From: Campylobacteraceae bacterium
GTDB lineage: Bacteria; Campylobacterota; Campylobacteria; Campylobacterales; Sulfurovaceae
DNA length: 45,379 nt
NCBI GenBank assembly: GCA_027068975.1
Contig: JALXFN010000116.1
Location: forward strand, 1-45,379
Direction of reading: 5' to 3'
Both the position numbers and the translations under genes were made by a program. Of this stretch, positions 18,913 through 41,385 are shown piece by piece. The notes under the pieces are model-generated. The model was not told where the DNA came from and made no database searches. It worked only from the letters and a program-made list of their open reading frames with translations. The first letter of the stretch is position 1, and every line of letters starts with the position of its first letter.

Positions 18913-18986
18913 TGGTTAGCCGTATCGGATTCGAACCCACAACTTGTGCTTGATAGGCACACGATATTCCATTTATCTAACGACTA
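18913..18986 (-). tRNA. tRNA-like gene, anticodon position ATC (odd or degenerate)
   Basis: Read on the minus strand this 74-nt sequence folds as a tRNA: acceptor TAGTCGT pairs with ACGGCTA (one G-U), U8-A9 are present, the D arm is GATA-AATGGAA-TATC, the anticodon stem is TGTGC/GCACA with loop CTATCAA, the T loop is TTCGAAT, and CCA is encoded. The T stem has one mismatch. The loop gives anticodon ATC, which would read Asp codons with an A at the wobble position; bacterial tRNA-Asp uses GTC. It is either a degenerate tRNA or an unusual tRNA-like RNA. A T-run follows the CCA end. Confidence 0.5.
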
Positions 18987-24541: not shown

Positions 24542-25747
24542 TCAATACAAAAACCCAAACAACCAAAGAGGCACTTTACCCCCAAAACCAATCTCTATAT
24601 CATCTGCGACTACATATGAATTTTCTATATCTTTAATTTGTTTAAAACCTTTGTTTTTTCCACCAACTTCAAAGGTATATTTTTCATCAACTAAAAAGTC
24701 TCCCTTAGTAGCGTAGTTAACTAAGTGCTGTTTATAGAGCATACTTACAAAAAAAGTCTCTCGTATGGTTCCAATATTACTGTTGATACAAAGAGCATTA
24801 AAAAGATTTGCATTGTTCAAGTAGAGCTTGTCTGGTTTTTGTAGATTTTGAAACCGTTTTGCATCAAAAACAATGTGGTGAAGCAGTTCAGCTCTGCTAA
24901 GATAGGTGATGTATTTGTAGAGTGTTGGCTTTGTAATTCCTACTCTCTTAGCTAACTTTTCCATTGTTATCTCAAGAGGGTTAGAGACACAAATACTCAA
25001 CAGTAATCGCTTAAGAGACTCTATCTTTTGAGCATCTATATTAACCACATTGACCAAATCAGTATAGAGTATGGTATTGATATTCTCATGTACTCTATCT
25101 ATATATCGCTCTTCATCTTCAAAGTAGAATGGATAGACACCCACCTCTATAAACTGAGAAAAGTATTTGAGGATTTTTTTATTGGGCAGACTATCTATAA
25201 TCTCATTGCTAATAGTCTCATGTCTCTCTAATATCTCCTCTAAAGGGTAGCTTTTTAAAGAGATATTTTCACCCATCTCTAAAAACTCCCTAAAAGACAA
25301 AAGAGGAAGATGATACATAGAATATCGCCGTGTAAAATCGGCATTGGTAAGCTCAACAGCACTGCTACCACTAAAATATACTTTTACACTCAAAAAGTCA
25401 TAAATCATTTTGATTTGTGTCTGAAAGTCTCTAATCTTATGAATCTCATCAATGACAATCACCTCACCACCAAATTTAGAGTACTCATCTACAAAATCAA
25501 ACAGAGAGACTTCTTGAAACATAGGGTGGTCACAAGAGACATAGAGTTTCTCTTCTGCTTCGTAGGGCAACTCTTTTAGCACTTGTAAAAGTAGTGTTGT
25601 CTTTCCAACTCCTCTACTTCCATAAAGACCTGTAATTTTAGCTTTTGAGTTTTTAATGTTGCTAAAAAGAAATCGTCTATAGGTAGGTAGTTGTTGGTTC
25701 AACTTTAAACGATAGAATCGGTTTGCATTCTCTAAAATAGATTTCAT
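24542..25747 (-). CDS. AAA_14/DUF4143 ATP-binding protein (copy A)
   Basis: A 401-residue protein with Walker A GSRGVGKTT (43-51) and Walker B VIVIDEIHKI, a central winged-helix-like segment (LAKRVGITKPTLYKYI), and a C-terminal DUF4143 domain ending VPLWLFGFLY. The C-terminal run DEKYTFEVGGKNK resembles a PD-(D/E)XK core, but nuclease activity is not established. Proteins of this kind are common and multi-copy in bacteria, with no settled function. Close paralogues lie at 31582 and 40134. An 11-bp perfect inverted repeat lies just upstream (25764-25791). The ATG follows AAGGA. Confidence 0.85.
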   Translation of the reverse strand: MKSILENANRFYRLKLNQQLPTYRRFLFSNIKNSKAKITGLYGSRGVGKTTLLLQVLKELPYEAEEKLYVSCDHPMFQEVSLFDFVDEYSKFGGEVIVIDEIHKIRDFQTQIKMIYDFLSVKVYFSGSSAVELTNADFTRRYSMYHLPLLSFREFLEMGENISLKSYPLEEILERHETISNEIIDSLPNKKILKYFSQFIEVGVYPFYFEDEERYIDRVHENINTILYTDLVNVVNIDAQKIESLKRLLLSICVSNPLEITMEKLAKRVGITKPTLYKYITYLSRAELLHHIVFDAKRFQNLQKPDKLYLNNANLFNALCINSNIGTIRETFFVSMLYKQHLVNYATKGDFLVDEKYTFEVGGKNKGFKQIKDIENSYVVADDIEIGFGGKVPLWLFGFLY

Positions 25748-25971: not shown

Positions 25972-26739
25972 CTACACCCTATCCCTCTCTAAAAACCCCC
26001 GAATAAACAGTCCATACGCATCGCCATACGGTAGTTCAACATCTTCTTTTAAACGATTACGAACAGCTACTACTTTTTCATTTGTTTTTGGGTTAAGTGC
26101 CTCTTTTTCATAGCTCTCCCAGTAGAGTCCTGTTCCTCTTTTTTGCCATGAGGGGACATCGTTGAAGTTTGTGCCTTTAGAAAAGAGTAGCTCATTTTTC
26201 TCTGAGACTGAAAGCTTATCAAGTATAGCCGAAGCCTCTTTCCCACTTAAGCCTTCATCTCTTAGAGACCAGTAGCAGTGACCATTTAGGGCGTTTCGTT
26301 TCGCATCTTCTTGTCTCCATCTAAAGTAGTTCTCTACAAGGTCGATGTTTGGTAACTGAACAATACGACAGTCAAACGCACCTATGTCACCTAAGAGCAG
26401 AGAGAACTTAGCACTCGCTTCTCCTGCTAAAACAGAGTTGTATTTTCGCTCTTTTCTATGAAATACATTCTCTTTAAATGAAAAAAGCAGAGAAATCTCA
26501 TCACTCTGTGTGTAGCCATACATCACTTTAAACCCACAATTCATGAGGTGCTCTACGGTTTGGCTCATCATGCGTCTCATTTTCTCATCAAAAGGCGTTT
26601 TAAATGGATGCTTTACCTTGGTTAGGCGTGTAAAGCTTCGCCCATCTATTCGTGCTACCATATACATTTCAGGCATCACCATGTGGTCGTGTGTTGTCTC
26701 GTAAACACGCATCTTTTTATCTAAATCATCAAATTTCAT
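25972..26739 (-). CDS. Thg1-like protein (3'-5' RNA polymerase, tRNA-His guanylyltransferase family)
   Basis: A 255-residue member of the Thg1/TLP family. The metal-binding residues are visible in ARIDGRSF (Asp32) and TQSDEISLLF (Asp80, Glu81), followed by WRQEDAKRNALN, the bacterial form of the conserved block near the fingers. Thg1 adds G-1 to tRNA-His; bacteria encode that G, and bacterial Thg1-like proteins are known to extend 5'-truncated tRNAs by templated 3'-5' synthesis. The gene overlaps the upstream polynucleotide-kinase-like gene by 11 nt, consistent with an RNA 5'-end repair pathway. The ATG follows GGAG. It is last in a four-gene operon. Confidence 0.9.
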   Translation of the reverse strand: MKFDDLDKKMRVYETTHDHMVMPEMYMVARIDGRSFTRLTKVKHPFKTPFDEKMRRMMSQTVEHLMNCGFKVMYGYTQSDEISLLFSFKENVFHRKERKYNSVLAGEASAKFSLLLGDIGAFDCRIVQLPNIDLVENYFRWRQEDAKRNALNGHCYWSLRDEGLSGKEASAILDKLSVSEKNELLFSKGTNFNDVPSWQKRGTGLYWESYEKEALNPKTNEKVVAVRNRLKEDVELPYGDAYGLFIRGFLERDRV

Positions 26740-27175
26740 CTTTTATCTCCGTTACTAACATTTTATTGTCTTCTATTTTCACACTGTAAAGCTCATCATA
26801 CCCCTCTGAAAAAGTGGGTTTGGTCATTTTATAGTAGGTTGCTTTTACCCCTCTTGGAGGAATGTTCTCTTTTCCTTCACGCAAAGCATTACGCTCCAAA
26901 CACGCTTCAAGGTCAGACTCAAAATAGTAACCAATAATCTTAAAGTGATTTTTTTTAAACAGCTCAATATACTTATGACGTACCTCATCAGTTGGGTTGG
27001 TATTATCTATGACTACTTTTTGTTTTCCCTCAACACAGGCTTCTAAAAAGATATTTTCTCTATGTCTTGTTTTGAGCATATCTAGATTTATTCTCATGTG
27101 TGTTTTGTAAAACTTCTCTAAAAAAAACGTAGACTTCCCACTGGCTTGAAGCCCTGTGAAGATTATGCATTCCAT
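26729..27175 (-). CDS. Polynucleotide-kinase-like P-loop protein
   Basis: A 148-residue single-domain P-loop kinase of the AAA_33 / T4 Pnk kinase-domain type: Walker A GLQASGKST (8-16), INLDMLK with an acidic residue suited to activating a hydroxyl, then VVIDNTNPT and an arginine-bearing lid. Family members phosphorylate 5'-OH nucleic-acid ends or small molecules. Beside a Thg1-like polymerase, a 5'-OH RNA kinase is attractive because the polymerase acts on 5' ends. That assignment is inference. It has a strong ribosome site (GAGGAG), lies 3 nt after the ParB-like gene and overlaps the Thg1-like gene by 11 nt. Confidence 0.8.
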   Translation of the reverse strand: MECIIFTGLQASGKSTFFLEKFYKTHMRINLDMLKTRHRENIFLEACVEGKQKVVIDNTNPTDEVRHKYIELFKKNHFKIIGYYFESDLEACLERNALREGKENIPPRGVKATYYKMTKPTFSEGYDELYSVKIEDNKMLVTEIKDEI

Positions 27176-27178
27176 TGA

Positions 27179-28150
27179 TTACTCCTCATTCCACTCTCCA
27201 TTAAAAAAACTCTGCATCCTATCCATGCTATCTAAGGTATGCAAATAGGTAATGACCTCTCTCATACCCTCTGAAGTTGAGCCAAACACCCTAGACCTTG
27301 CATCGTAATATACATCTTCGTTATGATAGGCTTGGAGTAAAAGATTATTGGTCTTTTCTATGCCAAAATTGTTATGTTCTATATGTTTTAAAATACTTTT
27401 TCTTTTTCGCTCATTGTCCCAACTGTAAACAGTTTTTTCTGTAGGTTGAAGTAGTAAAATATCGACGTTTACTCCCTCATCATAAGCAGCTTTTAGTCGA
27501 TAATGCCCATCTAAAACAATATAATGTTGCAAACCTGAAATAGGTAAAAGCACAACAGGAGGCAAAACATCTTCTCTGGCTTTTTTTCTCCACCACTTTA
27601 AGCGACCATCATACTCATCTACTTTTTTTAAATTTACAAAACTATCTTCATCACCCATAAACCAGTCTATCTGTTGAAAAGCTGTTTCATTTAAAGCATC
27701 TTCAACTCCATATATACACGCATGGGCTATATTGTTTTTATGCAGTTGGGCATAATTATTATATTTAGTGTCATGTACATACGCCGACATCATCCACGTT
27801 CCATTGTACAAAAGTTCATCTGCATTTCTCTTCAAATCATCCATAAAGTAACTACTCCAAGACTCCAATGCTTCTGCTTTAGTTAAACCTTTTCTTTTCT
27901 CTACTTCACTCGAACGTATGGGGCTTAAAATGGACTCATAATCAAACGTTTTTAAAAGAGCAACACCATAATAACGACAATGTTGTTTTGCCCAAAAAAC
28001 TGTTTTTTCATCATAACAAAGTTTGAAAAAACCTCTACCACAAGTTTGCAGATGCAACTTTGGTTTTGAGTTTTTCATACCTTTTACTATTAGTTCATGG
28101 GCTAACCACTCATTGGCTTCGTTGTTTATGCTTTTGTAGTAGATTTTCAT
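27179..28150 (-). CDS. ParB/sulfiredoxin-fold-like protein of unknown function
   Basis: 323 residues. The clearest motif is VVLLPISG...IVLDGHYRLKAAYDEG (centred near residue 218), the core of the ParB/Srx superfamily, whose members include nucleotide-dependent DNA clamps, nucleases and kinases. The flanking N- and C-terminal thirds are not recognised, and no helix-turn-helix of chromosomal ParB is apparent, so a partition role is unlikely. Its ATG overlaps the stop of the upstream membrane/pseudopilin gene by 4 nt and it ends 3 nt before the kinase gene, placing it firmly in the RNA-repair-like operon. Confidence 0.65.
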   Translation of the reverse strand: MKIYYKSINNEANEWLAHELIVKGMKNSKPKLHLQTCGRGFFKLCYDEKTVFWAKQHCRYYGVALLKTFDYESILSPIRSSEVEKRKGLTKAEALESWSSYFMDDLKRNADELLYNGTWMMSAYVHDTKYNNYAQLHKNNIAHACIYGVEDALNETAFQQIDWFMGDEDSFVNLKKVDEYDGRLKWWRKKAREDVLPPVVLLPISGLQHYIVLDGHYRLKAAYDEGVNVDILLLQPTEKTVYSWDNERKRKSILKHIEHNNFGIEKTNNLLLQAYHNEDVYYDARSRVFGSTSEGMREVITYLHTLDSMDRMQSFFNGEWNEE

Positions 28151-28926
28151 CTCTTCTCACACTCAGAATAAAAAATATCAGCACCTTCATCTTCTCCACC
28201 CTCTTTTCTATCTGCTCCATAAGAGATTAACTCAAAACCATCTTTAGTTTTGATATAAACTATTTTTGTACCCCATGAATCTTTTGGTAATTTATATAAA
28301 TATGCATCTACAGCATAATTTGGATACTTTAAAACATCAGGATTTGAGAGAAGTGCTTCATTTCCTTCTTTAGTACTTGGGTAAACACCATTGTCTAGTT
28401 TAAACATTTTTAGAGCTTGTGCATTACCTCTCATATTTACACAAACAAGGTCTATTTTTGCTTTTTCCCCTGCACATGGAACTGTAGGAACAACAAAAGC
28501 AGCAAATAAAGGAAACACTAATATTATAAAAATCATAGTAAAAACATATTCAATTTTACCAATAATTTTTAACTCTTTTGAGGAGCTAGGCATTAGAAGT
28601 AAATAAGCAATAAATGAAAAAGCTACATAGAGGATATCTATCTTTACTTGTCTAGCTAAAAGTATAAGCAACATAGGTACAGCTACAAATAAGAACAAAG
28701 TCACTAATCCATGCAAACCAATATCTCGACCCCGTTTAACAGCACTTATAAGTGACAGTATCAAAATTGGTACAAATAAGCTTAATACAATTATAAAGTT
28801 AATTTCATCTATAAAAGGCATAAGTGTTAATAACACAAACCCAAACATCGGTAATACACTTAAAAACAAATAACCTTTTCTATCTAATCTACCATTTAAG
28901 CTAAATATCTTTTTTAAAAATTTCAT
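28147..28926 (-). CDS. DUF805 membrane domain fused to a degenerate GspG-like pseudopilin
   Basis: Residues 1-115 match DUF805: LNGRLDRKGYL, four hydrophobic segments and KRGRDIG (64-70). Residues about 127-255 match a type II secretion major pseudopilin: a hydrophobic helix FTMIFIILVFPLFAAFVVP, then KLDNGVYPSTKEG, LPKDSWGTKIVYI, and SYGADRKEGGEDEGADI, the calcium-loop end of GspG. The prepilin-peptidase cleavage Gly is replaced by Val and Glu5 by Phe, so it cannot mature as a pilin and is probably fixed in the membrane. It leads the operon with the ParB-like, kinase and Thg1-like genes, an unexpected partnership. Its promoter carries the tandem 11-bp element. Confidence 0.75.
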   Translation of the reverse strand: MKFLKKIFSLNGRLDRKGYLFLSVLPMFGFVLLTLMPFIDEINFIIVLSLFVPILILSLISAVKRGRDIGLHGLVTLFLFVAVPMLLILLARQVKIDILYVAFSFIAYLLLMPSSSKELKIIGKIEYVFTMIFIILVFPLFAAFVVPTVPCAGEKAKIDLVCVNMRGNAQALKMFKLDNGVYPSTKEGNEALLSNPDVLKYPNYAVDAYLYKLPKDSWGTKIVYIKTKDGFELISYGADRKEGGEDEGADIFYSECEKR

Positions 28927-28971: not shown

Positions 28972-29017
28972 ATTATACTCTAAAGGTCAATGTAAAGTTA
29001 GTAAATAGTTGTTAAAT
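28972..29017 (-). promoter_or_regulatory. RNA-repair-like operon promoter with tandem element, copy 4
   Basis: The element at 28996-29017 (plus strand AGTTAGTAAAT, AGTTGTTAAAT) lies 18 bp from a consensus TATAAT box (minus strand, 28972-28977). The predicted start is near 28965, 39 nt before the ATG. Confidence 0.7.
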
Positions 29018-29035
29018 TTTCTACCTATTTACGTA

Positions 29036-30520
29036 TTACTCAAACAGCTCATCTAAAGAGACTCTACTAATGTTTAGAGAGTGGACGGCTTCATTCATCT
29101 TAAGACCATAGGAAGTTACAAAAACCAATCTTAGTTCTGCTTTTTGTTTAGCCTTTAACCCATACTTTCGAAACATTGCTAATTTATTTTTTAGTTTCTT
29201 CTCATACTCTTTAGAGATGGTGTACTCATCGTTGTAATATTTACATTCTACGATGTCATAAATAGCATTTCCATAATTCACCACCAAATCAATTTGAGTT
29301 CCCTCTTCCTCTTCATTTTTAGCAATATGACTCCAATGATAAACCCCTGAAAAAAGCCCCCCAAGACCTCTAACCCTTAAATAGAGTTCAATATTGGTTA
29401 CAACTACCATTTCAAAGGCATAACCTGACCAGATAGAGAATGTTTGTTTACTCATTTCATTTCTCCAATATCCTTTAGATAAAGAAGCGACATCATTTTT
29501 ACTAAGCTCTTTGACCCATTTATGATGAAATAAAATATACGGGTCTGCAATAATATATTTAACCTCTCGACTCTTTTGATTAAATTTTGAAACACCTTGT
29601 ATAAACCCACATAAAAGCAGTTCATCTATGGTATCTATGAGTCGTTTTCCAAGAGAAATATCTAATTTCTTAGCAATCTCTTGCACCGTAAAACCTGTTC
29701 GCTTACTGCTTAAGAGTTCAATAATAGATTTATGAAAATTGGCTCTGTTCATAAAAAGAGAGTTAAAGACTTTGTCGTACTCACTGTGCATTAAACCATG
29801 AAGATTAAAAAACAAATCATCTATATTTTCATAAATACTTTTTTGTGGGTTAAGATAAGAGAGATACTTAGCCACCCCACCAAAAATCATATAGACATCG
29901 GTTATCATCTTATTATCTATATGAAAACCTTTCTCCTCAAGAAGGTACTGCTTTGTCTCTTTCAAGTTAAAAGGATACATAGGTATCTTGTGTGTTAACC
30001 TATTATGAAGTGAACCAACAGCATCTTCAAAAATTTTATTTTTAATCCATGAAGCATTAGAGCCACAAAGTATCATTACAATATTGGCTCTGACTTCACA
30101 ATAGGTATTCCAAAAGTAACCCAAAGCAGAGAGGAAATTTGCTCTTGTGGTTGGGTCTATCCAAGGTATCTCATCAATAAAAATTATTACTTTTGCTTTA
30201 TGATTCTTTTTCTCAACCTCTGCATCGATGGTTCGTTTTAAAAATCGAAACGCATCACTCCAATTTTCAATACTTTTACTAGGCTCAACCTTGAACCACT
30301 CATAAACCTGTTCTATAAAGTTATCTATTTGTGTTCCTGTAGAGACATTAACTGTTCCTGTAAACTCAAAAAAGAGAGACTCTTTTCTATACTCTTTAAA
30401 CATGTAATTGACCAAATAGGTTTTACCTATTCGTCTTCGTCCATAGATAGCTACCAATGAACTCTCATCGGCATCACACAAATCATTAAGAATCTGTATC
30501 TCTTTTTTACGTCCAATCAT
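29036..30520 (-). CDS. ATPase_2/DUF234 ATP-binding protein with nuclease-like C-terminus
   Basis: 494 residues. Walker A is YGRRRIGKT (about 26-34) and Walker B VIIFIDEIPWID; a winged-helix-like segment (VQEIAKKLDISLGKRLID) follows near residue 275; the C-terminal DUF234 region contains TQIDLVV...IVECKYY, a D...ExK set of PD-(D/E)XK nucleases. This is the archaeal-type ATPase family, widespread and poorly understood. It differs from the DUF4143 proteins nearby but has the same three-part plan. The ATG follows TAGGAG. Four operator-like half-sites fill its upstream region, suggesting tight and perhaps self regulation. Confidence 0.85.
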   Translation of the reverse strand: MIGRKKEIQILNDLCDADESSLVAIYGRRRIGKTYLVNYMFKEYRKESLFFEFTGTVNVSTGTQIDNFIEQVYEWFKVEPSKSIENWSDAFRFLKRTIDAEVEKKNHKAKVIIFIDEIPWIDPTTRANFLSALGYFWNTYCEVRANIVMILCGSNASWIKNKIFEDAVGSLHNRLTHKIPMYPFNLKETKQYLLEEKGFHIDNKMITDVYMIFGGVAKYLSYLNPQKSIYENIDDLFFNLHGLMHSEYDKVFNSLFMNRANFHKSIIELLSSKRTGFTVQEIAKKLDISLGKRLIDTIDELLLCGFIQGVSKFNQKSREVKYIIADPYILFHHKWVKELSKNDVASLSKGYWRNEMSKQTFSIWSGYAFEMVVVTNIELYLRVRGLGGLFSGVYHWSHIAKNEEEEGTQIDLVVNYGNAIYDIVECKYYNDEYTISKEYEKKLKNKLAMFRKYGLKAKQKAELRLVFVTSYGLKMNEAVHSLNISRVSLDELFE

Positions 30521-30650: not shown

Positions 30651-30687
30651 ATGAGAAGCAGACCCAGTTGTTGTTACTCTAGGTCAT
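30651..30687 (-). pseudogene. 5' remnant of a zinc-ribbon gene
   Basis: On the minus strand the sequence matches the first codons of the gene at 32847-33191, but its third codon is TAG and the match ends at 30651. It is part of a 173-bp direct repeat (30651-30823 and 33155-33327) that also holds the end of the macrodomain gene. Confidence 0.65.
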
Positions 30688-31522
30688 TTTTAAGCAACCT
30701 TTCAAAAGCCAAACTGTTCACATTGTTCTTAGGATTTTCGGGAATAGAGAAACTAATGTGCTTAAAGGCACTTGCGAACTTCCCCTCACCTAAAAGCTTC
30801 TCTGCAAATAACTCTGCTACTTTTTTGGGTTCATTTCTAAAGACACCACAACCCCATGCCCCTAAAACCAAAGCATCACAACCTTTTTGTAAAAACAGAT
30901 TTAATACATACTCTATACGTTCTGCAAAAAGAGTATCTATCTTCTCTACTGATTCAGGTTCATTATGTTCAATAGCCCCACGATTTGGAGCAGGAGAGGT
31001 TAAAAAATCGACCAAGTAGGGTTTCTCTAACAGTGTTCCATCATCAAGACGAAACACAGGACAATCAGCAGAGTAAATCATGTGATGTGAATAGAGCAAT
31101 GTTTTGTTTACTTTACGATGATATAAATAATATTCAGGATGTTTCTCTAGTGTTGCATACAAAGCAGAGTTACGTGCAAGGCTCTCCTCTTGAGCTTGAC
31201 TTCCAGCTAAAAACCCACCACCTGCATTTTTAGCCGAAGCGAAATTTAAAACACCTATGCGTTTAAACTCCAAACTATCACTAAGACGTTTAGCCCCCTC
31301 TAGTGTGGTCTCATTGACAAGCTCGATAACTGTTTCATGTGACACAGAGGGGTTAATAATCTTATGTTCATCAGGTCGTATCAGTTCAGAGTTAGCAAGA
31401 GCAGTAGCAATTAGTGCTTCCAACTCTACCTCTACAGCATCTACGGTGTACGAACCTTTTTCTATAATATCTAAAGTCTCTTGTGAGATTTGGGCTCTGT
31501 TGTTTCTGTTTTTATTTTTCAT
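30674..31522 (-). CDS. PARG-type macrodomain protein (TIGR02452-like)
   Basis: 282 residues. The signature of poly(ADP-ribose) glycohydrolases, GGG-X7-QEE, is intact: Gly101-103 in NAGGGFLAG and Gln111-Glu112-Glu113 in QAQEESLARN. Later blocks VLGAWGCGVFRN and the C-terminal sheet fit bacterial TIGR02452 macrodomains, which remove ADP-ribose from modified macromolecules. In this island it may reverse ADP-ribosylation by a toxin or by the cell's own enzymes. No ribosome site precedes the ATG, and a TATACT box at 31529-31534 predicts transcription starting at the A of the ATG, so the mRNA may be leaderless. The tandem 11-bp element controls this promoter. Confidence 0.85.
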   Translation of the reverse strand: MKNKNRNNRAQISQETLDIIEKGSYTVDAVEVELEALIATALANSELIRPDEHKIINPSVSHETVIELVNETTLEGAKRLSDSLEFKRIGVLNFASAKNAGGGFLAGSQAQEESLARNSALYATLEKHPEYYLYHRKVNKTLLYSHHMIYSADCPVFRLDDGTLLEKPYLVDFLTSPAPNRGAIEHNEPESVEKIDTLFAERIEYVLNLFLQKGCDALVLGAWGCGVFRNEPKKVAELFAEKLLGEGKFASAFKHISFSIPENPKNNVNSLAFERLLKNDLE

Positions 31523-31581: not shown

Positions 31582-32787
31582 CTAATACACAAACCCAAAC
31601 AACCAAAGAGGAACTTTCCCTCCAAATCCTATCTCCATATCGTCTAAAGCCAAAAAAGAGTTTGGTATGTCTTTTATCTGTTTGAAGCTTTTGTTTGCTC
31701 CTCCCACTTCGACGGTAAATTTTTCATCTATCAAGAAGTCCCCTTTTTCAACATAATGTACTCGATGTTGACTAGAGAGCATACTCACAAAATAGCTCTC
31801 TCGTATGGTTCCTATCTCTTGATTACTGCATAAAGCAGAAAACAAGTTGGTATTGCCAAGGTAGAGTTTGTCAGGTTTTCGTATGGCTTTAAATCGTTTG
31901 GCTTCGTGTGATATGTGGTGAATGAGTTCAGCTTTTCCCAAATACTCTATGTATTTGTAAAGCGTCATTTTAGTGATGCCAACAGTGGAAGCCAACTTAT
32001 CAATAGAGATTTCTAAGGGCTTCGAGACACAGATGGTCAAGAGTAGTTTTTTGAGTATGTCTATCTTGTCAGCTTGAATCTTAAAGAGTCGTCCTAAATC
32101 TTTGTACAACACGGTATTAATGGTCTCATGAATTCTATCAATATATTTGGATTTGTCCTCAAAGTAGAAAGGGTAAACCCCCACATTTACAAACTCATCG
32201 TAAAGTTTCAAAATCTTTTTGTCTATCAATTCATTTAAAATGTCATGCACTATCGCTTCATGATTGTTTACAATATTTTCTAAGCTATAAGCCTCTAAAT
32301 CTACTTTTTGAGTCACTTCAAGATACTCTCTAAATGAAAATATAGGCATCTGATACATCGAATAACGCCGTGCAAAATCTGCATTGGTAATCTCAATTGC
32401 CGATGAGCCTGAAAAGAGTATCTTTACCTCTAAAAAATCATAAATAGATTTCAACTGAGCCTGAAAATCATCAGCCTCATGAATCTCATCTATGACAATA
32501 AACTCCCCACCTCGCCTTACAAACTCATCAACAAAATCAAAAAGAGAGACCCCTTTCATCATAGGGTGGTCACAAGAGATATAGAGCTTTTTAGAGGCAT
32601 TAAGTTTGGTGTTTTTAAGTATCTGTAACATCATCGTAGTCTTACCCACTCCACGACTTCCATAGATACCTATAATCTTACTTGTTGAGTCAAAAATCTC
32701 TTCATAGAGAAATCTTCTATATTTTGGTAGAGGTTGGTTCTGTTTAAAAAGAGAGAGTCTTTGTGCATTTTTTAGTTTTTCTTGCAT
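31582..32787 (-). CDS. AAA_14/DUF4143 ATP-binding protein (copy B)
   Basis: A 401-residue close paralogue of the protein at 24542. Walker A is GSRGVGKTT, Walker B FIVIDEIHEA, the winged-helix-like segment is LASTVGITKMTLYKYI, and the C-terminal DUF4143 domain holds DEKFTVEVGGANKSFKQI and ends VPLWLFGFVY. Compared with copy A the Lys after GGxN is kept. No function is established for the family. The ribosome site is weak. Upstream lies a different inverted repeat (32804-32830), so the three DUF4143 copies do not share an operator sequence. It lies inside the segment bounded by the 173-bp direct repeats. Confidence 0.85.
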   Translation of the reverse strand: MQEKLKNAQRLSLFKQNQPLPKYRRFLYEEIFDSTSKIIGIYGSRGVGKTTMMLQILKNTKLNASKKLYISCDHPMMKGVSLFDFVDEFVRRGGEFIVIDEIHEADDFQAQLKSIYDFLEVKILFSGSSAIEITNADFARRYSMYQMPIFSFREYLEVTQKVDLEAYSLENIVNNHEAIVHDILNELIDKKILKLYDEFVNVGVYPFYFEDKSKYIDRIHETINTVLYKDLGRLFKIQADKIDILKKLLLTICVSKPLEISIDKLASTVGITKMTLYKYIEYLGKAELIHHISHEAKRFKAIRKPDKLYLGNTNLFSALCSNQEIGTIRESYFVSMLSSQHRVHYVEKGDFLIDEKFTVEVGGANKSFKQIKDIPNSFLALDDMEIGFGGKVPLWLFGFVY

Positions 32788-32846: not shown

Positions 32847-33191
32847 TTATAAATTTTCCAACTCATTTTTTAATTTTTTCAATCGTTTCCTATTCTCTTT
32901 GGTATCTTTTTTTTCATAAATAAGCTCTTTAATCTCACGCTCAATCCTATGTTTAGACTCAACTCGGCTCTTTTGTTCTTCTTCAAGATTTTCTATATCT
33001 GTCCAATACATGCAACACGCCAACGCTTCCCACTCTTTGACTTTATGCTTTTTAGGAACAGGAATCTTGTAGCCAAGACAATAGAGTTCTCTTTTGCAGT
33101 AAATACAATGTGGAGTGCTTTTTCGTATCTTTGGCTCACGTTTATGGTACTTGCATGAGAAACAGACCCAGTTGTTGTTGCTAGAGGTCAT
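32847..33191 (-). CDS. Small zinc-ribbon protein with a coiled-coil tail
   Basis: 114 residues from the ATG at 33191, which overlaps the end of the macrodomain-fragment gene. Two cysteine pairs (CFSC and CIYC, about 20 residues apart) form a zinc ribbon near the N-terminus; the C-terminal half is a charged, heptad-like helix (ENRKRLKKLKNELENL). Function unknown; such proteins bind nucleic acid or protein. The 5' end of the same gene survives as a remnant next to the full macrodomain gene at 30.67 kb, so in the ancestor the two genes overlapped as a pair. A longer frame to 33209 is open but less likely. Confidence 0.6.
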   Translation of the reverse strand: MTSSNNNWVCFSCKYHKREPKIRKSTPHCIYCKRELYCLGYKIPVPKKHKVKEWEALACCMYWTDIENLEEEQKSRVESKHRIEREIKELIYEKKDTKENRKRLKKLKNELENL

Positions 33192-33327
33192 TTTTAAACA
33201 ACCTCTCAAAAGCCAAACTGTTCACATTGTTCTTAGGATTTTCAGGAATAGAGAAACTAATGTGCTTAAAGGCATTTGCAAACTTCCCTTCACCTAAAAG
33301 CTTCTCTGCAAATAACTCTGTTACTTT
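33155..33327. repeat. 173-bp direct repeat (second copy of 30651-30823)
   Basis: The two copies align without gaps at an offset of 2,504 bp and differ at scattered positions. Each holds the 3' end of the macrodomain gene and the 5' end of the zinc-ribbon gene. The full macrodomain gene is at the first copy and the full zinc-ribbon gene at the second, so homologous recombination across them would restore an intact pair and delete ATPase copy B. Confidence 0.8.
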
Positions 33328-39077: not shown

Positions 39078-39503
39078 TCACTGCTCTTCTCTTAGCAATG
39101 AACTGTTTTCCACCAATCTTTGAGTCTCCTCGTCTGATATGTTTCGCACATATTCAACTTTAGCTAAACCATGAAATTCACAACCATCATTACAATGGGT
39201 TAACCATATCTCCTCTTGATAAGAAGAAAATCCTACCGTTCTAGTAGAGATTTCCTCTACTACTTCTTTCGTTAAACCTTCCCAGTTTTCTATATCTGCT
39301 ACAAATTCTCCTTTATACTTTTTAGAAGCAGTTCCATCTGCAACACACCAAGGACATATATTTTCAACATTTTCTTTGCAATAAATAGATGAAGTAATTC
39401 GATACCCTCTTTTTTGATTGCATACTTCACAAGTAGCATCACTTGCTTCTATAGAGCCTGTTTCAATAGGATTAGGATGGTATTTAAATTTTGGTAATGA
39501 CAT
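39078..39503 (-). CDS. CbrC-family (UPF0167) zinc-ribbon protein
   Basis: 141 residues. The family pattern is clear: LPKFKYHPNPIETGSI, CEVCNQKRGY, ICPWCVADGTASKKY and RTVGFSSYQEEIWLTHC. Paired cysteines suggest bound metal. E. coli CbrC is linked to colicin E2 tolerance, which suits a cluster of toxin-resistance genes. AAGGA precedes the ATG, and the gene is 19 bp downstream of the next gene's end, so the pair is probably co-transcribed. Confidence 0.8.
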   Translation of the reverse strand: MSLPKFKYHPNPIETGSIEASDATCEVCNQKRGYRITSSIYCKENVENICPWCVADGTASKKYKGEFVADIENWEGLTKEVVEEISTRTVGFSSYQEEIWLTHCNDGCEFHGLAKVEYVRNISDEETQRLVENSSLLREEQ

Positions 39504-40133: not shown

Positions 40134-41372
40134 CTAATACAACAACCCAAACAACCAAAGAGGAATCTTTGCTCCAAAGCCAACCTCTATATCATCAGCT
40201 ACAACATACGAGTTAGGTACATCTTTTATCTGTTTAAACTTCTTGTTTTTACCACCCACTTCAAGAGTATATTTCTCTTCAAGATAAAAATCTCCATAGT
40301 CCGAAGCATAAATGCCCTTGTTGTCTAAACGGTTTTTGTCAGTATAGTAGTTGGAGAGTTGATTCATAACAAAAGTCTCACGAACATTACCTATGTTTGG
40401 GGTTGAGGTGTACATTAGGTTTGCATTGGCAAGGTAGATTTTTTCAGGTTTATCTATGGACTTCATGGAGAGTGAAGATTTCATAAGCAGTTTAATTAAC
40501 CCTGCATCATCTAAACGAGATAGATACTCTTTAATGGTTCTATCATCTTTTACTTCGGTTGCTTTTTTAAGAGCAGAAATTTTAGGTGTAAAAGGAACAT
40601 TTTCCATAATTACAGAGAGCAGTAGCTTTATCTTTTTAATGCTCTTTCCATTGAGTGTGGGGTAGATGTTTAGTAAATCTCCCTCTATCGTGGTATTGAT
40701 GTTCTGTTTTAGTGTCTGAAAAAACATACTTTCGTTTGGCATACTTAAAAAATAAGGATAATAACCACACTCCAAATAGCGATGAAAAAGGGGTAGAACT
40801 CTCTCACCTTTACTTACTAAAAGCTCTACAATGTTTTCAGCCAACACATCATGATTTGAAAACACATCTTCCAATGCCAATGCCTCTAAACGGTAGCCAT
40901 AGTGAAGCTCTAAAAACTCTCTAAAGCTCATGCCCACCATTGTGTAGACTATGGCTCTTCTACTTAAATCGTGGGTTCCCTTATGTATCTCTAACGCAGA
41001 GCTACCACTTGCAATAACTTTTAGTGTTGGAAAACTGTCGTAGATAGATTTTAACTCTTGCGACCAAGAGCTGTATTTGTGTATTTCATCTAAACAGAGA
41101 AGTTTTCCACCTTGCAGTTCAAAGGCTTCTGCCAACTCATAAATGGAGTGTCGACTCATATTAATATCATCCAAACTCACATAAAGAGCTTCACCTCTTT
41201 TATAGTTCAGAGCCATATATTGTGCTATGGTAACTGTTTTTCCAATTCCTCTTGCACCAAGAAGAATGGAGAGCCGATGTTCAAATGGATTTTTTTTAAT
41301 AAAATATCTTTGGTATTCTAGGTTATTGTCTTTAACAAATTTATGACTTTTTCTAAAGAGTTCGGTTAGCAT
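40134..41372 (-). CDS. AAA_14/DUF4143 ATP-binding protein (copy C)
   Basis: 412 residues from the ATG at 41372, which follows GGAG; another ATG at 41384 is in frame but overlaps that ribosome site. Walker A is LGARGIGKTV, Walker B LLCLDEIHKY, and a helix-turn-helix-like run (KKATEVKDDRTIKEYLSRL) and a DUF4143 end (EKYTLEVGGKNKKFKQI, IPLWLFGLLY) follow. It is more diverged than copies A and B, mostly in the middle. Promoter sequences between two 17-bp inverted arms suggest repression by a dimer. Confidence 0.85.
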   Translation of the reverse strand: MLTELFRKSHKFVKDNNLEYQRYFIKKNPFEHRLSILLGARGIGKTVTIAQYMALNYKRGEALYVSLDDINMSRHSIYELAEAFELQGGKLLCLDEIHKYSSWSQELKSIYDSFPTLKVIASGSSALEIHKGTHDLSRRAIVYTMVGMSFREFLELHYGYRLEALALEDVFSNHDVLAENIVELLVSKGERVLPLFHRYLECGYYPYFLSMPNESMFFQTLKQNINTTIEGDLLNIYPTLNGKSIKKIKLLLSVIMENVPFTPKISALKKATEVKDDRTIKEYLSRLDDAGLIKLLMKSSLSMKSIDKPEKIYLANANLMYTSTPNIGNVRETFVMNQLSNYYTDKNRLDNKGIYASDYGDFYLEEKYTLEVGGKNKKFKQIKDVPNSYVVADDIEVGFGAKIPLWLFGLLY

Positions 41373-41385
41373 GATAGACTCCATA

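Follow-up and report, generated by a model that had tools for sequence, protein, structure and literature searches.

A predicted RNA 5′-end repair pair behind two local genes in an operon of a Sulfurovaceae genome

Bacterial Thg1 homologues are known to associate with a polynucleotide kinase (PNK). Anantharaman et al. (2010) described this association, in which Macro and RNA ligase genes also take part, and put forward a role in RNA repair (PMC2904730). The bacterial and archaeal Thg1-like proteins (TLPs) investigated so far prefer 5′-truncated tRNAs as substrates (PMC6471195, PMC3701042). Here we analysed a 45,379-nt stretch (hereafter, the window) of contig JALXFN010000116.1 from a Campylobacteraceae bacterium of the Sulfurovaceae (assembly GCA_027068975.1), in which a kinase gene and a TLP gene end an operon of four open reading frames (ORFs), all on the minus strand, behind genes for a DUF805–GspG fusion and a ParB-like protein (Table 1). 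From sequence comparisons, we consider it likely that the core of this operon is a horizontally acquired RNA 5′-end repair pair and that the DUF805–GspG and ParB-like proteins are local passengers.

We surveyed 38 Thg1 loci with upstream sequence to assess, which are not independent and mostly come from Myxococcota, and found the kinase directly upstream of Thg1 on the same strand in 30 of them, an adjacency conserved across five phyla. The two genes overlap by 11 nt, as in the window, at 20 of these 30 loci, which span Campylobacterota, Myxococcota, Bacteroidota, Planctomycetota and Pseudomonadota. At a Planctomycetaceae locus, PNK–Thg1 is followed by an RNA ligase and HD-Pnk with a Macro gene nearby, and a Deinococcus plasmid carries Hen1 and RlaP beside PNK–Thg1. 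A compact pair with the same 11-nt overlap in five phyla and with recurrent RNA ligase, HD-Pnk, Hen1 or RlaP neighbours provides strong context for RNA 5′-end repair and bears on the biological role of bacterial TLPs. A preliminary description of the window had already read the kinase and Thg1 homologue as an RNA 5′-end repair pair; adjacency, fold, catalytic residues and repair neighbours all support this reading, which is well supported but has been known since 2010 (PMC2904730).

The last protein of the operon matched the Pfam families Thg1 (8e-32) and Thg1C (1e-14), and its best solved match was the Methanosarcina TLP 5axk (MaTLP; 4e-29). Its residues D32, D80 and E81 aligned to MaTLP and the human enzyme, and at least 95% of 40 sequences share them. 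The protein lacks the HINNLYN motif that characterizes true Thg1, having RNALNGHCYW where the human enzyme has HINNLYNTVFW. Thg1 fold domains, three catalytic carboxylates and no HINNLYN motif mark the protein as a TLP and a predicted 3′–5′ RNA polymerase.

The preceding kinase matched Pfam AAA_33 (4e-11), with mammalian PNKP kinase domains as its best sequence matches (2.6e-7, phmmer). With eight orthologues as input, AlphaFold gave a model of mean pLDDT 90, for which Foldseek placed PNKP first and Clostridium thermocellum Pnkp close behind. VIA-align returned Z scores of 16–17 to PNKP, C. thermocellum Pnkp and two fungal kinases, about 14 to zeta toxin and O-phosphoseryl-tRNA kinase, and 12–13 to PFKFB. 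The P-loop (G8/G13/K14), the catalytic Asp position (D32) and a DNTNP motif were at least 95% conserved in 31 sequences. P-loop, catalytic Asp, DNTNP-type motif and modelled PNK fold together point to a polynucleotide 5′-kinase of the PNKP-kinase type, predicted to phosphorylate RNA, that stands alone with neither a phosphatase nor a ligase domain. An alternative in which the substrate is a small molecule or seryl-tRNA, or the protein is a zeta-type toxin, and the link to Thg1 is not RNA 5′-end healing, could draw on the breadth of the AAA_33 family, on the fold that the protein has in common with zeta toxin and PFKFB kinases (Z 12–14) and on a match to TIGR03574 (L-seryl-tRNA(Sec) kinase; 3e-10, far under its cut-off). 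We regard this as unlikely, as the best sequence and fold matches (Z 16–17) are polynucleotide kinases, the gene is persistently coupled to a polymerase requiring a 5′ phosphate, and RNA-repair genes adjoin the pair elsewhere.

As a repair pair, the kinase would phosphorylate 5′-OH ends produced by RNases, and the TLP would then activate the 5′ phosphate using ATP or GTP. It would add nucleotides in the 3′–5′ direction with the opposite strand as template, for example the 3′ strand of a tRNA acceptor stem, and 5′-truncated tRNAs would in this way get back a full acceptor stem. Through the 11-nt overlap, kinase and TLP would probably be translated as a coupled unit. The DUF805–GspG and ParB-like genes, in turn, were probably inserted locally ahead of the pair in an expanding island, with only the promoter in common. 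The comparisons show the gene structure, a conserved pair and overlap, the catalytic residues, the fold of the kinase, the neighbourhoods and the lack of both passengers elsewhere; from them we infer the substrate, the order of the reactions, the biological trigger and the functional independence of the front genes.

Sequence evidence also points to lateral acquisition of a pair that is rare in the phylum. Clear Thg1 occurred in the window genome only (1 of 397 genomes in the phylum sample); a second match in the phylum was set aside as unconvincing (E 8.8e-4, 28% identity over 95 aa). Within the genus, 2 of 34 genomes have Thg1. The gene has a G+C content of 0.41, compared with about 0.33 for most surrounding genes, and the window TLP is 59–68% identical to Myxococcaceae-type orthologues. 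A Thg1 tree places the two Campylobacterota sequences beside Myxococcaceae, in a weakly supported position (84/56). Recent arrival of the pair where 32 of 34 genus genomes are without it offers a natural comparison.

A sister genome (G452, locus L002) holds the same locus, with FA_hydroxylase at one border and a 266-aa gene and MBOAT region at the other. Its kinase and Thg1 are 97–98% identical to the window pair at the protein level. Ahead of the pair, across a 39-nt gap, lies a gene for a 139-aa GspG-like protein, with 69% identity over 132 aa. The sister locus lacks both the ParB-like gene and the DUF805 half. Positions 1–2971 of L002 and 18906–44549 of the window have equal borders and enclose about 2.6 kb and 25 kb, respectively. 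One breakpoint between them lies close to tRNA-Asp (18913–18986), 7 nt from its 3′ end, and no integrase family appeared among the matches of the scanned window genes.

Gene order and spacing in the operon (a 4-nt overlap, then a 3-nt gap, then an 11-nt overlap) and the coordinates of the four ORFs agree with the preliminary description, as does the tandem-element promoter ahead of them, which is followed by TATAAT at 28977–28972, read on the minus strand. This tandem 11-bp direct repeat (TTTACTAACTATTTACTAAC) precedes several island operons. Five copies in the window (20650, 24512, 28997, 31553 and 35027) carry no more than one mismatch, compared with 0.00 expected from shuffles, and two weaker copies (40094 and 43989) carry four mismatches, all read on the minus strand. 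TATAAT or TATACT follows about 21–22 nt after the element in most copies, and no copy with two or fewer mismatches was found outside the window. From its sequence, the repeat looks like an OmpR-type operator. A common promoter ties the four genes together in expression only.

The first protein of the operon matched T2SSG (PF08334; 5e-20) and, below threshold, DUF805 (8e-5) in Pfam, and scored 89.8 bits against TIGR01710, just above the cut-off of 88.85. It carries neither a prepilin cleavage motif (GFTLIE-like) nor a pilin helix, whereas the GspG paralogue of its own genome has the prepilin motif AFSLLE. By its sequence, the protein is a DUF805 membrane domain joined to a GspG C-terminal globular domain and not a classical pseudopilin; the earlier label ‘pseudopilin-like’ thus holds for the globular domain and fails for the missing prepilin motif. 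This domain is 65% identical to the GspG of the same genome. Because GspG occurs almost throughout the family (127 of 150) and the genome's own copy has the prepilin motif, the domain was probably borrowed from the local GspG. Two further genomes of the genus carry DUF805–GspG fusions, with a WYL-like regulator or an RHS-like repeat gene alongside and with Thg1 missing or on another contig.

The second protein has no credible Pfam match; weak matches, at E values of about 0.05, to the Glucosaminidase and AvrE families were rejected as chance. We call it ParB-like on the basis of its Box I (RLKWWRKKAREDVLPPV) and Box II (VLDGHYRLKAA) motifs, the RefSeq naming of its Cronobacter relatives and a profile match to 1vk1, the only relevant PDB entry, which was not significant (E 0.49). 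A single-sequence AlphaFold model (pLDDT 33) was too poor for fold assignment. The operon has no ParA gene and the protein no helix–turn–helix (HTH) Pfam match, so that neither hallmark of a ParB partition protein was found. Among seven aligned relatives, DGHxR and RxKxxRK...LPP are invariant. The gene is present in 1 of 34 genus genomes. A different family of the same order has relatives in two genomes, beside a DUF2062-like gene (a sequence reading). Further relatives occur on Cronobacter plasmids (32 records), where rhomboid, histidine phosphatase and GNAT genes lie close by, and on Streptomyces plasmids; no relative was found in phages or viral contigs, and none was found beside Thg1. A Corallococcus match (54%) was discarded as a linked case, its ParB-like relative lying on contig C44 and its Thg1 on C11. 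The Cronobacter plasmid members (L013 4989–6047 and L085 3989–5047) belong to a family that has no Pfam model and in which RxKxxRK...LPP and LDGHxR are invariant.

These contexts bear on the joint four-gene system that the preliminary description had proposed. The neighbourhood search it had asked for found the four families together at none of the other loci examined, and neither front gene occurred at other kinase–Thg1 loci, except for the sister's short GspG-like gene; the four-gene order is known in one operon only. Having been staked on such co-occurrence, the joint system is refuted within the sample searched, as judged from sequence, and the arrangement proposed probably came about by accident in this genome; as such, the four-gene arrangement does not appear to matter. 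We infer from these absences that the front genes are functionally unlinked to the pair. A single four-protein system, in which the GspG-like protein would sense or anchor, the ParB-like protein would act as a nucleoside triphosphate (NTP)-binding switch, and kinase and polymerase would repair RNA under toxin or phage attack, is very unlikely even with a single transcription unit, tight spacing and a common promoter, a GspG-like gene kept ahead of the pair in the sister, and CbrC/UPF0167 and candidate defence ATPases among the island neighbours: the ParB-like gene is missing at the sister locus and in 33 of 34 genus genomes, its relatives have unrelated contexts, and DUF805–GspG fusions elsewhere are not beside Thg1. 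More doubtful still is membrane-anchored, NTP-switched RNA 5′-end repair, in which the DUF805–GspG and ParB-like proteins would localize or gate the pair when toxins that cut RNA attack, with control by an island-specific regulator.

Some observations weigh against a repair pair with local passengers. The kinase was not detectable at 8 of the 38 Thg1 loci, so a TLP can also be found without this kinase. The RNA ligase family PF09414 was not found in the host genome, in which RtcB is present. The sister's GspG-like gene ahead of the pair leaves a little room for a weak link between that gene and the pair.

Least credible of all is that the window Thg1 homologue puts G-1 onto tRNA-His in its host: membership in the Thg1 family and the in vitro G-1 addition known for some TLPs (PMC6471195) are set against the lack of the gene in 32 of 34 genomes of the genus and in about 395 of 397 of the phylum, a TLP as best solved match and the missing HINNLYN motif. 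A pattern scan found no host tRNA-His gene, its matches not looking like tRNA.

Around the operon, the island grows by module duplication, as shown by its duplicated modules, three AAA_14 ATPases and a piece of the PARG-like gene (Table 1). Elsewhere, too, Macro-type genes lie near PNK–Thg1. PADLOC matched none of the four operon proteins. CbrC is associated with colicin E2 tolerance in E. coli. The preliminary description had seen toxin-immunity-type genes in the island; this stands for the UPF0167/CbrC-family protein, which is below cut-off, and the candidate defence ATPases, to which the toxin-tolerance-type genes are limited. The toxin context of the island is suggestive at most.

Table 1 Features of the four-gene operon and its surroundings; positions refer to the window unless a locus is named.
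Feature	Position	Strand	Length	Remarks
DUF805–GspG fusion	28147–28926	minus	259 aa	first gene of operon
ParB/Srx-like orphan protein	27179–28150	minus	323 aa	second gene of operon
Predicted polynucleotide 5′-kinase	26729–27175	minus	148 aa	third gene of operon
TLP, predicted 3′–5′ RNA polymerase	25972–26739	minus	255 aa	fourth gene of operon
PNK/Thg1 overlap	26729–26739	minus	11 nt	ATGAAATTTGA
Operon promoter element (tandem 11-bp direct repeat)	28997–29020	minus		pattern scan
Paralogous AAA_14/DUF4143 ATPases (three)	24542–25747; 31582–32787; 40134–41384			DNA repeats, 72–79% identity
ATPase	29036–30520			PADLOC candidate family PDC-S27 (7e-147); weak C-terminal Mrr_cat_2 nuclease-like match
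PARG-like gene	30674–31522			TIGR02452
Piece of the 3′ end region of the PARG-like gene	33144–33327		184 bp	92% identical
UPF0167/CbrC-family protein	39078–39503			Pfam 1e-45; under NCBIfam equivalog cut-off
Other DUF805–GspG fusions in genus	L037 3004–3714; L038 3311–4114			one broken by stop codon

Compared with known systems, the first protein has the C-terminal globular domain of GspG, the major pseudopilin of type II secretion, but carries a DUF805 membrane domain in place of the prepilin site and pilin helix. The ParB-like protein has Box I and a GxxR Box II in common with SerK and SbnI, orphans of the ParB-CTPase fold (PMC12704722), and differs from them in its family-specific N and C parts, with no HTH or ParA partner seen and no Pfam model. 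The window kinase resembles the kinase domains of mammalian PNKP and C. thermocellum Pnkp in fold, P-loop and catalytic Asp position, and its DNTNP motif is the one common with PNKP; unlike them, it is 148 aa long, without phosphatase or ligase domains. In sequence, three carboxylates and lack of the tRNA-His motif, the window TLP agrees with MaTLP (5axk), BtTLP (4kgk) and MxTLP, its own activity being predicted. The PNK–Thg1 neighbourhoods described earlier (PMC2904730) contain the same pair, which Macro-domain and RNA ligase genes accompany in some cases; in the window, a DUF805–GspG fusion and a ParB-like gene lie ahead of it, the island around them has a tandem-repeat promoter of its own, and the host belongs to Campylobacterota, where Thg1 is rare. 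The Pnkp1–Rnl–Hen1 complex (PMC4411300) similarly heals bacterial RNA ends in a setting linked to ribotoxins, and Hen1 also stands beside the Deinococcus PNK–Thg1; the window has no ligase or Hen1, and polymerization would take the place of sealing.
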